A stretch of 64,000 nucleotides of DNA, taken from Bergeyella sp. GTDB taxonomy: Bacteria; Bacteroidota; Bacteroidia; Flavobacteriales; Weeksellaceae. Where the stretch lies: contig SZYB01000001.1 in assembly GCA_030263285.1 (NCBI GenBank), positions 124,001-188,000 of the forward strand, read 5' to 3'. The translations under genes and the position numbers were made by a program. Positions 40,885 through 52,000 of this stretch are shown here, one piece after another (position 1 is the first letter of the stretch; each line of letters opens with the position of its first letter). Under the pieces are notes generated by a model. That model worked only from the letters and a program-made list of their open reading frames with translations, ran no database searches and had not been told where the DNA came from.

Positions 40885-42172
40885 CTATTTTTGTAGGGCG
40901 TGGTCGAAAAAATCGGCCACTTTTTTAAAAACCCGGTCTTTAAAACTCAGAGGTTGGAAGTCGGTGAGCTCCCGTATTTTTTCTTTCAATACGTGAGTTT
41001 CTTTCTCTTTCTTTTCCTCTTTGCTTTCTTCTCGATCGGTGTGGAGCTTGGGGTTTTGGGGTTTGGGAATTCCGTACGTTTCGTACCAGTAATCCGGATC
41101 AAAAGGCACTTTCTCGGATACCTGCAGGTCGATTTCCAGCCGCTTTTTAAGCTTTTCTAAGTTCAGCTCTATATTGTACTTAAATTTTCCTCCCTCCACG
41201 GGGTAACCGTAAGAGGAGAGAATTTTAAGAAATCGCGCGCTGTTTAAGGTGTTTTCTATAAAAACCAAATCGGAGGCGGTGATCTCGTCTTGTTGCTCTG
41301 CATGTTCTTTACTTTGGGCATACCCCGAACTTCTAGAAGAGGAAGTGGTTTCGGTATTTCCCAAAATACAGATGGCCATTTCTTCATTGCAAGCATTTTT
41401 AAATTTGTCCTGAAGGTCTCCGTTGCCGTTGCTCTGCTTGCCATCCAGCATAGAAAACTTGGCTTGTTTCGGGATCATCATAAAAAGACCGTTGCCTGAT
41501 TCTCTCCCCAGTTTTCTGATTTCCTCTTTGGTTTTCGTGTCGTAGGCATCGTATTCCACGATGCGAACCGGTTGACCGAAAATCTCTACGTATTGCGCCC
41601 AGTCGCCCCAATTGCCCCGCTTATAGACCGCATAAAGCGAACAGGTGAGCAAAAGCCCCAGATGGTTTTTCTCCCCGATCACCCACACAAAGGGAAGCTC
41701 GTCTATCTTAAATTCATCATCATAGGCGTTGTATTGATTTTTGGCAATGACCCCTTGTTCAATCTTAATGTGCTTGCGGGGAATCTCTTCCAAGGCAAAT
41801 TCCCTTCCGACTTTAAATTCCACGCCCGAAAGCCCCCAAAACAAAGACTCGAGAATTAACCTGATGAGTTTTCTCCCTTCCTCCCCTCTCATCAGATGGG
41901 TGATCTCCCTATTTTCGTTGCCCTCTCTGTCGATAAATTTGAGCTTTTTTTCAGTACGGAAGCGATCCTCTTCTCTATGATTCCGGATAAAAAACCGTCC
42001 ATAGACACCACGTCGTGATAGAGGTCATAGAGCTGCACACGGTTGGGAAAAGCGACAGACTCGGCTCTGATGACTGCAGATTTTAAACTTTCGATATCCT
42101 TTCTATTTCTGTCGGGTGAGGTGACGGAAAGATCGTAAATCACCGGAGTTTCTGCTTTTGTTTTTTTTACCG
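40885..42172 (-). pseudogene. phage portal protein (DUF935, Mu gp29-like), frameshifted
   Basis: The N-terminal piece (TPVIYDLSVTSPDRNRKD, YDLYHDVVSMDGFLSGIIEKRI) and the C-terminal piece (MRGEEGRKLIRLILES, PFDPDYWYETYG) are in different frames. Adding one base to the seven-T run at 41945-41951 (A7 on the coding strand) joins KKKLKFIDREGNENREITHL to the second piece. No clear ATG precedes the first piece; a GTG at the V of PVIYD is possible. The portal is the DNA entry ring of the head. Confidence 0.82.
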
Positions 42173-46107: not shown

Positions 46108-46419
46108 ATGAACACAAACAAAGCCCGATCTTTGGATTATTTTTTAAGACACCCCTTAAGCAACGAATGCCACATCGTGGAGGGAAGGATTTTTTACACA
46201 AAAGACACTGCGCAAAGTTTTTCCAACACGTTGGAACATGCGGAAGTGGAAAGTTTTTACCGTTCTAACCTTAAGGAAAACGAGGGGGAGGAAAAGAAAA
46301 CCGTCAGAAAAAACCCTGAGGGAAAAGCCAAAGAGGAAGTCAAAAAAAGGCCTTTCCAGGCGGCACAACAAAATAAAAAAGAGAAAACGCAACCCCAAGA
46401 AAAAACCGCAACCCCATGA
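46108..46419 (+). CDS. hypothetical phage protein with Lys/Glu-rich tail
   Basis: 103 residues: an ordered N terminus (SLDYFLRHPLSNECHIVEGRI, FYTKDTAQSFSNTLEHAEV) and a low-complexity tail of lysine, glutamate and glutamine (KKTVRKNPEGKAKEEVKKR). It overlaps the sheath start by 4 bases. No family recognised; similar small proteins precede sheath genes in related phages, as far as I can recall. Confidence 0.5.
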   Translation: MNTNKARSLDYFLRHPLSNECHIVEGRIFYTKDTAQSFSNTLEHAEVESFYRSNLKENEGEEKKTVRKNPEGKAKEEVKKRPFQAAQQNKKEKTQPQEKTATP

Positions 46420-47579
46420 ATCAAGGCACAGGAACACCGAAGGTTTCCGCACACATTTCCTCGGGAAATCTCCTCCGTAAACTCTCCGTCACCGACGGGG
46501 TGGCCGGGGTGATCATCACCGCCCGAAAGGCAGAGAACATCGGTCGGGTGGAGAAAATGTACTCTTTAAGCGATGCGGAAAGCAAGGGCTACACGGCAGA
46601 GGGTGAGCCTTTTATCTACCGATTTCTCTACGAATTTTATCTGGAGCTGGGAGGCAACACGGAGCTTTGGCTTTTGGGTGTGGAGGATACCATGACCATG
46701 GAGGAAATGGTAGAGAGCACCCATGAGAACGGGTGTAAAAAACTCCTTACGTTCTCCAAGGGGAAAATCAATCTGGTGGGCGTTGCCCGCCATCCCAACA
46801 AAGGAGAGGAAATCTCCGGGGGCTTTTTAGATAAGGACGTGGAAAACGCGCTTTTGGCTTCCAAGTCGCTGGCAGAGTACCAGCAGTCGATCAACCGACC
46901 GGTGAGAATACTCATCGAAGGCAGGATAAAGGACGCAACATCGGAGGATATTTTCGAACCTCGGGAAGCGGAAAACACCTATGCCGGAGTGGTATTGGGT
47001 TCTTCCAGACCCGACGGATCCGCCTCTCTGGGCACCGCTCTTGCCAGGGCATGCAAATACCCTGCCCACATAAAATTGGGCAACGGGCAAAACGGTCCCC
47101 TCAGCCTCACCCAAGCCTATATCGGCAAGCAGCCCATAGACGAAATCAACCCGACGGAGTTGGACAATTTATCCGATGCGGGGTATATTTTGATGCATAC
47201 GCGGGAGGGTTCAGCCGGCTACTACTTCGGCATAGACAATATGGCGGGCACTTATGATTTTAGATTTTTGGCCCACGGGCGGATCATCGACAAAGCCCAG
47301 CGCGTGGCCACGGCGGCAGCGACGCCTTTTCTGGAAACCCATATGAGGATGAGCAGAGAAGGGGAAATTAACGCCAGTGATGCGAAATATCTGGAGGAGA
47401 CGATCAAAGCCCAACTGAACACCTCCCTCGTGGATCAGGTAAGCGAGGTGGCGGTGCTGGTGGATATCGCGCAAGATCTCATCAATACGTCTACGCTTTC
47501 CATAGAGGTGAAGGTGCAGCCGTTGGGGTATCTCTCTTGGATCCGCATTACGTTGGGATTAACCACAAACACAGAATAA
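46416..47579 (+). CDS. phage contractile tail sheath protein (DUF2586-like)
   Basis: 387 residues, intact. Characteristic segments are DGVAGVIITARKAENIGRV, ENTYAGVVLGSSRPDGSASLGTALARA, GRIIDKAQRVATAAATPFLETHM and a C-terminal VEVKVQPLGYLSWIRITLG strand that fits the sheath's handshake interlock. It marks the phage as a myovirus type. The tube gene follows after 3 bases. Confidence 0.75.
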   Translation: MNQGTGTPKVSAHISSGNLLRKLSVTDGVAGVIITARKAENIGRVEKMYSLSDAESKGYTAEGEPFIYRFLYEFYLELGGNTELWLLGVEDTMTMEEMVESTHENGCKKLLTFSKGKINLVGVARHPNKGEEISGGFLDKDVENALLASKSLAEYQQSINRPVRILIEGRIKDATSEDIFEPREAENTYAGVVLGSSRPDGSASLGTALARACKYPAHIKLGNGQNGPLSLTQAYIGKQPIDEINPTELDNLSDAGYILMHTREGSAGYYFGIDNMAGTYDFRFLAHGRIIDKAQRVATAAATPFLETHMRMSREGEINASDAKYLEETIKAQLNTSLVDQVSEVAVLVDIAQDLINTSTLSIEVKVQPLGYLSWIRITLGLTTNTE

Positions 47580-47582
47580 AAA

Positions 47583-48026
47583 ATGAGCAACATCAACATC
47601 ACTTCTTCCGAGTGTGCGTGTGCGCACTTTGAGGTGCAAATTTTAGGAAGGGTCATCAAAGGCCTTCGGGGATTTTCCATCAATAAAACCGTGGACAAAG
47701 AGCATATCTATGGCTCGGGAAATGAGCCGCTCGACATACTGGGGGGAAATATAAAATACGAAGGCTCGGTAAAACTCTTGGGGTTCGAGGTGGATGCCAT
47801 GCATAGGGCAGCACAACTGGCGCAGTTTTCGGACATCACCGACGTGCCACATGAGGGCATTGTACTTTTTATCTCCTACAGAAAACGCCCCTTTGATCCG
47901 CTAAGAAGCTACACCGTGACGGGGGTATCTTTTACGGAAACCGGAGTCAACTTAGAGCAAAACGCGAAATACCGGGAGATCACCCTTCCCTTTATTGCGA
48001 TGAATATTGACCAAACGATACTTTAA
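47583..48026 (+). CDS. phage tail tube protein
   Basis: 147 residues, mostly beta: FEVQILGRVIKGLRGFSINK, VDKEHIYGSGNEPLDILGG, EGSVKLLGFEVDAM and REITLPFIAMNI. These match the tube-protein fold of Bacteroidota Mu-like phages, and the place right after the sheath is standard. Confidence 0.7.
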   Translation: MSNINITSSECACAHFEVQILGRVIKGLRGFSINKTVDKEHIYGSGNEPLDILGGNIKYEGSVKLLGFEVDAMHRAAQLAQFSDITDVPHEGIVLFISYRKRPFDPLRSYTVTGVSFTETGVNLEQNAKYREITLPFIAMNIDQTIL

Positions 48027-48036
48027 AAAAATCATC

Positions 48037-48617
48037 ATGTCAACACATAATTTAGAAAAGGCCTTTGCGGCCGGAAAAAAAGGGGAAAACAAGGGGAAGG
48101 AAACCCCCGAAAAAAAGAGAAAACGACCTCACTCCCTTTTACGAAAGGTTTACGGAGGGGAAAATAGAAGAGTGGAAAAAACAGTTTAAAGGGAGGGAAC
48201 TGATTTTTATCCGGGTAGAGCATTTTTTGGCGGTTTTAAGACCTCCCACGGTGGAAGACATCGCCAACTATCTTACCCTTGTGACGGGGGAAAATATGTC
48301 GAAAGCGGTGAGCGCGTTGTTGCAGGATTTGTGGCTGGATGGGGATTATGATTTAATTGAAGACGAAGACAATTTCATTGCGGTGTTTTTTCAAATCAAC
48401 ACGCTGATGGAGGGAAAAAAATCGGAATTTTTTCGCGCTTAGCGAGAGGGGAAAGAAGGACTATGAAGAGGAAAAAACCGGGCTGGAGGAACTCATCGTT
48501 TTTGGAAGTATGCGTTTTGGGGCCAATGCACTAAAGGAATGGGGTGAAGACCTGTTTTTTTACCGTACGGGAATCGCCTTAAAAATTTGGGAAAAGCAAA
48601 AATCTTTTTTAGAATGA
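48037..48617 (+). pseudogene. phage tail assembly chaperone pair, frameshifted, with candidate -2 slip site
   Basis: First part: MSTHNLEKAFAAGKKGENKG breaks in an A7 run (48110-48116) and resumes as ENDLTPFYERFTEGKIEEWK through LIEDEDNFIAVFFQINTLME, ending EFFRA at TAG 48440-48442. A second coding part (ALSERGKKDYEEEKTGLEEL, FGANALKEWGEDLFFYRTG) ends at TGA 48615-48617. A -2 shift on TTTTTTC (48428-48434) would fuse them, as known for the two tail chaperones of phage Mu. The TGA overlaps the ATG of the tape measure gene. Confidence 0.55.
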
Positions 48618-48976
48618 ATACCAATGCCGTCGAACTTGTCGTAAAGATGAAAGACCTGATGTCGAGAGGACTGGTCAGGCTTTCACAAAATTCCACTTCC
48701 GCCTTTGGAAAAATCACCCAAAAGGCCAAAACCCTTGCGGAGAGAAACAAGGCGGTAGCCGAGGCTTTTGGGACAGCGACAAGAAAAGCCAAAGAGCTGG
48801 AAAATACGGTAAAATCCTCGGGGGTGGAAGGGAAGCTCAGAACGATACGACAGGAAATACAAGCCTTACACAATGTAGGGAGAGGCGGGGGCATGGGCAC
48901 CAAAGGCGCGATGATGACCGCCACGGGAATCATAAATACCCTTGCAAATTCGACTATTTTATTTCTTTTTTTATAA
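48614..48976 (+). pseudogene. phage tail tape measure protein, N-terminal fragment
   Basis: About 120 residues: MNTNAVELVVKMKDLMSRGL, then coiled coil (NKAVAEAFGTATRKAKELEN) and a glycine-rich turn (GRGGGMGTKGAMM). Tape measure proteins are several hundred residues or more and set tail length. Here phage-like sequence stops near 48,945 and the frame ends in STILFLFL, so the rest of the gene and all baseplate and fibre genes are deleted. This is the right end of the prophage. Confidence 0.65.
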
Positions 48977-49087: not shown

Positions 49088-52000
49088 ATGTATATCATAT
49101 TTGATACCGAAACCACAGGTCTCCCCAAGAATTTTAATGCGCCGCTTTCGGATTCGGCTAATTGGCCCAGGATGGTTCAGCTGGCTTGGCAAATTCATAA
49201 TGAAGCGGGGGATCTGGTAGACAATCAAGACTATATCATCAAGCCGGAGGGTTACGATATTCCCTACAATGCCTCCAGAATACACGGAATTACAACGGCG
49301 GTCGCAGAAAAAAAAGGGAGGGATCTTACAGGGGTCTTGCTGGAGTTTTGTGAAGCGGTAAGGGGCTGCAAAATAGGAGTAGGGCAAAATATAGATTTTG
49401 ATTACAAGATTGTAGGGGCAGAACTCTACAGAAAAAGTATAGAAAATATTCTTGACCCTTTAAAGCAAGCGGATACCATGCTTTTGGGGACAGAATATGC
49501 AGGGATTATTAATCCTAAAACGGGAAAATATAAACCACCAAAACTTGAAGAACTTTATCAGAAACTTTTTGGACATAAGTTTGATGAGGCGCATAATGCG
49601 GCGGCAGACGTAAATGCCACGGCTCGGGTTTTTTTTGAGATGCTTCGTTTGGGGATCATCACGGCAAGGGATCTTGGACTTGATGAAGCGGTAATCAAAT
49701 CTTTCAGGGAAAACCATCCGGAGGTAATATCGCTATTTCCTATTGAGATTCGAAGTCAGGTAACCGAATTTAAAAGGAACAAAAAAGAAGAGCACGGCAC
49801 CACTCCGGAGATAGAAATAGGGCAGTATTTTAATTTTCATAACCACAGTATATTTTCTTCTCTTCAGGCCTCTTCTCATCTTTCAGATTTTATAGATTCT
49901 GCACTGGAAAATAATTTTCCTGCAGTGGGTTTGGTAGATTTTGGAAATATGATGGGGGTTTTCAAGTTTATTTCGGAGGTAGAAAAAGCCAATATAGCGC
50001 TTAGGAAGAAATACGAAGAAGAAAGCACTCGGGGAGATAATCAAAATGTTCCTCCGGAGAAATTCCCCGGTTTGGTTCCTGTGGTGGGATGTGAGTTTTA
50101 TATTTCGGATAGACCTACACAGAAACAGTTTACTAAAGAAGATCCGGATCGAAGAACCAATGTAGTACTGCTTGCAAAAAATTTTAATGGATATAAGAAC
50201 CTGGCGAAACTTTCGAGTTTGGGATATCTTGAGGGCTATTACTTCGGGGTTCCCAGGATTTCGAAACAACAGATTAAGGAGTATAAAAAAGGTCTTGTTG
50301 CTCTTACCTCAGGGCTTTCCGGTGATGTGCCGAGTACGATTTTGGAATTTGGAGAGACGCGTGGTGAAGAGGTATTTAAGTGGTGGAAAGAGACTTTTGG
50401 GGACGATTTTTATGTGCAGATACAGAACCATGGGATAGAGGAAGAAGTTTATATCAATGCCGTTTTGGCGGATCTGGCGAAGAAATATGAAGTGAAGATT
50501 CTAGCTCAGAATGAGACCTATTATACAAGAGAGACGGACGCCCACATACAGGATATTTTGCTTTGTATAAAAGATGGAGAAAAACTTTCTTCTCCTGTGG
50601 GGGAAGGGTTTGGCAAACGAAAAGGCCTCAAGTCCAGGCAATTTTATCTGAAAAATAAAAAAGAGCTGAAAGAAACTTTCAAAAATTATCCTTATGCCTT
50701 TGAGGCTTATGAAGAGTTTTTGAAAAAGTTCGAACCCTATACGCTTACACGGGAGGTTTTGCTTCCAAAGTTTTTAATTCCTAAGGAGTTTCAGGATCCG
50801 GAAGATGAAAAGGATGGGGGTAAGAGAGGGGAGAATGCCTATCTGAGACATTTGACCTATGAGGGAGCCAAGGTAAAGTTTAAAGAGATGACTCCGGAGA
50901 TAAGGGAAAGATTAGACTTTGAGCTGGAGACGATTGCAAATACTGGATATCCGGGGTATTTTCTCATTGTACAGGACTTTTGTAATGAGGCAAGAAAAAT
51001 GGACGTTTGGGTGGGACCGGGCAGAGGATCTGCTGCAGGATCTGCCGTGGCGTATTGTATTGGGATAACCAACGTAGACCCTATAGAGTATGATCTGCTT
51101 TTTGAGCGTTTTCTCAATCCCGAAAGAATTTCCATGCCCGATATAGATATTGACTTTGATGATGAAGGGAGGGATAAGGTGATAAAGTGGGTAATAGAAA
51201 AATACGGAAAGATGAATGTGGCGCAGATCATCACTTATTCTATTTTGGGAGGGAAGTCGGCTATTACGGATGTGGGCAGGGTGATGGAACTCTCTATTCC
51301 CGAGACCAAAAATATTGCAAAACTGGTGCCTTCTTCTCCGGGGATGAATATAGCCAAATCTCTGAGTAAATACGAAAAACTTCCCCCCGAGGATAAGGTA
51401 TTGGTAGACGAAATAAAGTCTATTCTGGAAAATCCTCAAGACAGTAGATTTTCGGTTTTGTCTGCCGCTCAAAAAATGGAAGGATGCATAAGAAATACGG
51501 GAATTCATGCCTGCGGGGTTATTATTACTCCGGAAGATATTTCTCGTTTGGTGCCCATTACCATTGCTTCTAAAGATGCTGATATACTGGTCTCTCAATA
51601 CGATAATTCTGTGGCAGAAAACGCAGGGCTTCTAAAGATGGATTTTTTGGGTTTGAGAACGCTTTCTATCATTAAAAGTGCCATAAAACTCATTAAAGAA
51701 AGACACGGAAAAGAGATAGACCCGGATAAAATTTCTTTACATGACGAGAAAACCTACAAACTTTTTCAGGAGGGAAAGACTATAGGGATTTTTCAGTACG
51801 AAAGTTTGGGTATGCAAAAGTATATGCGGGAACTCAAGCCCACCGTTTTTGCAGATCTTATTGCCATGAATGCCTTGTACCGCCCGGGTCCTATTCAGTA
51901 TATTCCGAATTTTATCAACAGAAAACATGGGATCGAGGAGATTGTCTATGATCTGGAAGAGTGTAAGGAATATCTGGAAGAGACCTATGGCATTACGGTA

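Follow-up and report, generated by a model that had tools for sequence, protein, structure and literature searches.

A probable programmed +1 frameshift site, UUU_CGY, in the tail assembly chaperone gene of Mu-like phages of Flavobacteriales

In a 64,000-nucleotide stretch of a Bergeyella sp. contig (hereafter the window), a short prophage gene ends just after a run of six T's, and a second coding stretch reaches the same point in a different frame. Are these two halves joined by a programmed ribosomal frameshift and, if so, in which direction does the ribosome slip? The run (TTTTTTC, 48428-48434) follows a GAA codon and is read in the zero frame as TTT TTT CGC GCT TAG; the sequence and its translation give the EFFRA end and the TAG stop at 48440-48442 that a preliminary description of this locus had reported. 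The shift site as a whole (48428..48442, plus strand, like the tail genes described below) thus has the form TTT_TTT_CGC_GCT_TAG, with UUU in the E site, UUU in the P site, CGC in the A site, one further codon and the stop. The second coding stretch is also real. Its frame is open from 48408 to a TGA at 48615-48617 (translation FFALSERGKKDYEEEKTGLEELIVFGSMRFGANALKEWGEDLFFYRTGIALKIWEKQKSFLE), and it is the frame reached either by slipping two bases back, as the preliminary description had proposed by equivalence with phage Mu, or by slipping one base forward. Our preferred reading of the sequences, with a probability of roughly 85%, is a programmed +1 frameshift in a tail assembly chaperone gene, carried by a Mu-like phage whose sheath is of the contractile type.

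The genes around the site follow a recognisable order. Upstream lie a tail sheath gene (DUF2586, 46416..47579), identified by Pfam PF10758 (E 6e-28) and PHROG 907 tail sheath (E 1.4e-17), and next after it a putative tail tube gene (47583..48026). The latter matches PHROG 4579 tail protein (E 9.7e-5) and, better, PHROG 9206 'major head protein' (E 4.6e-12), and we call it a tube gene from its position. The chaperone gene comes next, and we refer to its two halves as G and T. The G part comprises an N-terminal piece that begins at ATG 48037 (48037..48189) and a zero-frame stretch, open from stop to stop, that ends in EFFRA (48056..48442). The T extension follows in the +1 frame (48432..48617; 61 residues counted from the slip codon, then TGA), and its stop overlaps as ATGA the truncated 5' remnant of a tape measure gene (48614..48976; PHROG 1535 tape measure, E 0.007 for the query 48587-48976). 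A homologous locus, L064, has the same gene order as the window and a 568-aa ORF at the position equivalent to this remnant. In both loci the chaperone gene therefore lies between the tail tube and tape measure genes, these two being assigned partly by position. The prophage also carries a Mu-type portal (PF06074 in a Pfam search with the 40885-41892 ORF, the longer of two). This portal gene (40885-42143, minus strand) is apparently split into two touching ORFs, 41892-42143 and 40885-41892.

Relatives of the G part were sought at several depths. Within the family, 26 of 296 genomes gave matches at 28 places, 14 of them at E <1e-35 (window included) and 14 weaker; the 13 homologous places in other genomes share 50-57% identity with the window G part, and six of the 28 places, all weak matches, were left out of the locus set. 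A scan of GTDB genomes gave 14 loci in records titled Chryseobacterium, Kaistella, Epilithonimonas and Flavobacterium, and profile scans of viral contigs gave 30, 41 and 40 loci with large overlap among the scans; a scan of the same contigs with the window protein alone gave nothing. Searches at the levels of order and phylum, with 395 genomes drawn for each, found matches in 10 and 2 genomes, respectively. No +1-type member from outside the order appeared in these order-level and thin phylum-level samples, the hosts of the viral contigs being unassigned. The window G part and one extension had no tblastn match in 50,697 phage records, nor had the fused L064 protein any in plasmids. In the window's genome the exact 15-mer TTTTTTCGCGCTTAG has a single occurrence. 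It is also present in 57 viral-contig stretches, 15 of which are the chaperone gene by profile; among the remaining 42, no stretch combines 40 or more open codons ahead of the 15-mer with 30 in the +1 frame behind it.

The resulting set holds 154 loci (L001-L154). Both parts are present in 139, with T in the +1 relation to G in 132 and in the -1 relation in seven; the remaining 15 match the G profile only. The 132 loci of the +1 clade reduce to 42 distinct sequences, the window being one, and the seven -1 loci are all distinct. For comparisons of codons we used 35 representatives of the clade, whose last 100 G codons are <92% identical in nucleotides. The tree of G parts has 41 of the 42 sequences, since the L065 group, which runs off the end of its contig, has a G part identical to another's.

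Every one of the 42 sequences ends its zero frame in [TTT/TAC] TTT CG[C/T] NNN TA[G/A] and continues in an open +1 extension, a recurrence well beyond what chance would give; in each case the stop lies nine bases from the start of the TTT. Relatives that encode the two parts in one continuous frame were looked for, and none exists among the 139 loci with both parts. Because 42 of 42 share the out-of-frame layout and none has a single frame, the frameshift would be a programmed one, and the proposal that it joins two halves of a probable tail chaperone stands. Both halves are also maintained as protein. Between representatives, synonymous change approaches saturation (median pS 0.77 for T and 0.81 for G). 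The codon comparisons indicate that purifying selection acts on the T part (ratio of median pN to median pS 0.31, from 595 pairs of the 35 representatives; dN/dS median 0.14 and maximum 0.40 over the 226 unsaturated pairs of 595) and on the G part (dN/dS median 0.09, maximum 0.30, 133 pairs).

Despite this near saturation, the codons of the site itself are constrained. The shift-site Phe is TTT in 42 of 42, against 235 TTT to 111 TTC in the remainder of the same genes in the 35 representatives, and of the 21 columns in which a degenerate residue is invariant it is the sole one with an invariant codon. If the representatives are taken as independent, the Phe usage of these genes gives P 1.3e-6 for a chance occurrence of TTT in all 35, a figure that serves as a guide only because they are related. 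The following Arg codon is CGC in 39 and CGT in three of the 42 (32 and 3 of the representatives), and CGC supplies 20 of 181 Arg codons elsewhere; part of this constraint arises from coding in the +1 frame, where GCN is Ala. The stop is TAG in 31 representatives and TAA in four. The codon before the slip codon is TTT in 25 representatives and TAC in ten. Where it encodes Phe it is TTT in 25 of 25 (about 68% expected for each), and where it encodes Tyr it is TAC in ten of ten, yet the same genes use 97 TAT to 62 TAC; TTC and TAT never occur there. The TAC codon precedes UUU_CGC in L024, L046, L048, L050, L052, L057, L061, L064, L088 and L095.

The direction of the shift is best judged from these two groups. 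The preliminary description had suggested comparing the length of the run among relatives, and the comparison divides: the six T's recur in 31 of the 42, but the other 11 read TAC TTT C, with a run of only three. The conserved element is therefore TTTCGY and not the T6 run. A programmed -2 shift on TTTTTTC as in Mu would move tRNA-Phe from 48431-48433 to 48429-48431, followed by TTC, and would require a T at each of 48429-48431. Such re-pairing is possible in the 31 sequences with six T's, including the window copy, where the upstream Phe is always TTT, and Mu itself makes its chaperone by a -2 shift (record AF083977, and extracts of the review PMC5009743). In the 11 sequences with TAC TTT CGC, by contrast, the tRNA would have to re-pair on ACT. 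We searched the overlap of the two frames for every zero-frame codon whose tRNA would meet a synonymous codon after a step of +1 or -2. For +1, TTT_C at the site offers this in 42 of 42 and is alone in doing so, the next best being AAA_G in 33. For -2, the candidates are the site TTT in 31 of 42, the last codon before the stop re-pairing two bases upstream on Ala GCG in 27, and AAA re-pairing on AAA in 19. None of these is shared by the whole set of 42, and in L061 the 70 nt next to the stop offer no -2 option even when only the first two letters have to agree. The best G tree, moreover, requires no fewer than three switches between TTT and TAC in the codon before the site while TTTCG stayed unchanged, and each switch would mean the loss or regain of a -2 mechanism. 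Because of the TAC relatives we dropped -2 as the main reading and regard both that direction and the equivalence with Mu as improbable. A +1 shift is the most likely direction, since the 11 TAC sequences bar re-pairing of tRNA-Phe two bases back and UUU_C allows it one base forward in all 42; slippage forward on UUU_C is a single mechanism that would fit every sequence. Our confidence in +1 is not higher because the upstream TTT of the T6 group would also fit a -2 shift.

The same comparison bears on a slip by RNA polymerase, in which the T6 run would shift the frame in a fraction of the mRNAs. Six T's are indeed present in 31 of the 42 distinct sequences, but a six-base run is short for transcriptional slippage, and 11 of the 42 keep an identical layout with a run of only three T's, which makes this reading very unlikely. 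Even less credible is that the extension is a separate, coupled protein translated after the stop. The stop and the extension do overlap closely, a GTG stands at extension codon 1 in three of the 35 representatives and start codons further upstream occur in another count of three of 35, but 29 of the 35 have no ATG, GTG or TTG in the T frame before codon 20, and the first ATG usually falls at codon 26 or 27, where initiation would remove conserved residues.

In the window the prophage is decaying but has retained the frameshift site, as judged from a frame break in the N-terminal region of its G gene and from the tape measure ORF ending at 48976. The G start codon (ATG 48037) and its N-terminal piece are out of frame with the G body (48065-48442), a second frame break in this gene that we attribute to decay or to an assembly error. 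In 40 of the 42 distinct sequences the zero frame has an ATG that opens a product of 125 aa or more, the exceptions being the window copy and the L095 group. Runs of seven A's lie at 48075-48081 and at 48110-48116, the latter within the region of the N-terminal frame break. The tape measure ORF ends after about 120 codons, shortly before a long ORF at 49088 that we take to resemble DnaE with an exonuclease-like start. The decay of this copy speaks for the preliminary description's alternative of a relic, in which a one-base deletion split a continuous gene. We reject that alternative as extremely unlikely, since the out-of-frame layout recurs at the same codon, with both parts under purifying selection, in each of the 41 other distinct sequences, which come from other species and from viral contigs.

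For the preferred reading, a +1 slip on UUU_C, we propose the following mechanism; the occurrence of slippage, its direction and its efficiency we infer from the alignments. Most ribosomes would read TTT TTT CGC GCT TAG and release the short G protein. In the others, tRNA-Phe (anticodon GAA) would slip one base forward at the tetranucleotide UUU_C (48431..48434; codon-invariant), from UUU to UUC, on which its wobble G would gain a Watson-Crick pair, and reading would continue in the +1 frame (GCG CTT AGC ...) to give the G-T fusion. UUU-pyrimidine sites were reportedly studied with reporters in E. coli by Schwartz and Curran in 1997. The tRNA set of the host is consistent with this scheme: among the 33 tRNA genes of the genome (Rfam model; ARAGORN on 24 loci covers them), Phe is read only by GAA, and Arg by ACG, TCG, TCT and CCT, one gene each. 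Outside the prophage the window has 22 ORFs of at least 200 aa, and no sense codon is rarer in them than CGC (24 of 13,282 codons, 1.8 per 1000); in 60 kb of each of three related genomes it stands at 2.0, 2.1 and 2.7 per 1000 and is tied second rarest, rarest and fifth rarest, respectively. The use of TTT only for Phe and TAC only for Tyr before the site points to an effect of the E-site codon, as in the PA-X site of influenza A virus discussed below. We prefer this to a -2 requirement as the cause of the invariant upstream TTT because the other lineages use TAC only and never TAT, and the TAC-only Tyr may likewise reflect an E-site codon rule for +1 frameshifting. No further stimulator was identified between RNA structure and Shine-Dalgarno-like elements. 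RNAalifold on the 35 sequences, over a region reaching 30 nt upstream and 150 nt downstream of the site, found no conserved structure (five weak pairs, -0.4 kcal/mol, no compensatory change), and the 35 representatives have no Shine-Dalgarno-like element at a fixed spacing upstream, both the strength and the place of upstream pairing with an approximate anti-Shine-Dalgarno sequence being variable.

Signals of this kind have been described in eukaryotic viruses. Influenza A virus makes PA-X at UCC_UUU_CGU, where the +1 direction was shown by a junction peptide (PMC3498833), and a UUU_CGN +1 site has been proposed for plant amalgaviruses (PMC5052127). Firth et al. 2012 predicted a +1 class composed of UUU_C together with restricted A-site and E-site codons and left its use by cellular genes open (PMC3498833). 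The phage site resembles these in its P-site UUU followed by C, its CGN in the A site, its probable +1 shift and its restricted E-site codon. It differs in belonging to DNA phages of bacteria, in an E-site codon of UUU or UAC, in an A site of CGC or CGT only and in a stop nine bases from the start of the UUU. The features of the UUU_CGN class are found here one by one: all 42 sequences have the UUU_C P site, the CGN A site and the +1 extension, the E-site codon of the 35 representatives is restricted to the two given above, and the A-site codon is rare by CGC usage in the window and the three related genomes. A keyword search of open-licence PubMed Central papers, as far as their indexed extracts go, found no UUU_CGN frameshifting in a bacterium or phage, and the extract used of a survey of prokaryotic frame transitions, which puts chaperone frameshifts at about 7% or below, makes no mention of Flavobacteria or UUUC (PMC3711429). 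UUU_CGN +1 shifting being known from eukaryotic viruses, the new element, as far as we have searched, is the use of UUU_CGY by bacterial phages. Natural bacterial examples with synonymous constraint at the P, A and E sites would make the rule of Firth and colleagues testable in a simple bacterial system.

Frameshifting in phage tail genes is known in all three directions, and lambda G/GT and related chaperones are examples (review PMC5009743, citing Xu et al. 2004). Like lambda G/GT, the gene studied here lies between the tube and tape measure genes and would have a short G product and a long G-T product with the shift near the end of G; the lambda type is a -1 shift, whereas the window clade would use +1 on UUU_C. 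Mu gene 41/56 shares with it the Mu-type portal, the order of sheath, tube, chaperone and tape measure genes and the same target frame. Unlike the -2 site of Mu (AF083977), however, the clade does not conserve -2 re-pairing, and its G profile shows no similarity to gp41: when a profile built from 14 sequences was compared with the one Mu protein in hhalign, the probability was 0.3%, though such a comparison could miss distant homology. The +1 sites of the Listeria phage tsh and cps genes (CCC_UGA and CCC_UCC; PMC5009743) are likewise +1 shifts on the P-site tRNA in phage structural genes, but they use a Pro codon with a stop or UCC in the A site and lie in tail shaft and capsid genes, not in a chaperone gene.

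It is probable that the gene encodes a tail assembly chaperone of the G/GT type, a role that we infer from gene order and the two-frame layout. By analogy with lambda, the G:GT ratio would organise the tape measure and tube proteins in tail assembly. Neither G nor T matched a named chaperone family in Pfam (above cut-off) or PHROGs. PHROG 19076, of unknown function, matches the window G part (E 2.9e-12), and in all it matches both +1 sequences tried (window, L064) and all four of the -1 sequences tried (L019, L070, L111, L115); gene order and the two-frame layout suggest that this family is the G part of a tail assembly chaperone, and our finding would thus suggest a function for it. AlphaFold models had a mean pLDDT of 86.5 for T and 79 for G. 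Fold searches of the PDB returned nothing significant (best for G 3fgx, E 0.11; none for T), and a profile search of PDB sequences returned a single match at E 0.97. For annotators, the two ORFs of such genes in phages of Flavobacteriales would be joined.

More distant relatives have a -1 layout, and for this reason the mode of recoding appears to have changed within one family. The G parts of these relatives (L111-L114 and L152-L154; farther away L016-L021, L070-L076, L115 and Flavobacterium phage FPSV-S1) are matched by profile A3; they differ from the +1 clade in their -1 layout and, in the seven loci with both parts, in the heptamer A_AAA_AAA. In these seven distinct sequences (L111-L114, L152-L154) the G and T parts are both homologous to those of the +1 clade but stand in the -1 relation, and CTA_AAA_AAA or GTA_AAA_AAA lies a short way upstream of the zero-frame stop. 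The product of a -1 shift there, KKKxFFExLxxG, aligns by eye with the KKxEFFALSExG that +1 slippage would give. The tree calls for a single switch between the -1 and +1 modes, with the +1 sequences on one side of a branch whose support is weak (40/29); much of its branching order is unresolved, and its alignment still included the residue before the site. A single origin of the +1 mode is the simplest reading, and its derivation from -1 the natural one. We consider it fairly likely that UUU_CGY, with UUU or UAC only in the E site, is a genuine prokaryotic recoding signal of the influenza and amalgavirus +1 class, independently reached in Flavobacteriales phages by way of a codon rare in the host, and that one lineage of this chaperone family moved from a -1 slip on an A run to a +1 slip a few codons away that yields the same fused protein.

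The 15 loci with a G part only (14 distinct) and FPSV-S1 have an open -1 frame after G, and several of the 15 have a shorter open +1 stretch too. Some of these sequences carry A_AAA_AAG, G_GTT_TTT or A_AAA_AAA, and others have no obvious heptamer. FPSV-S1 was matched weakly (E 4e-3, with the L019 protein as query), in a search that matched nine phage records, two of which were examined. In its record (L253 2135-2847) the G part is annotated as 'hypothetical protein', and the -1 extension that precedes the tape measure gene is unannotated.
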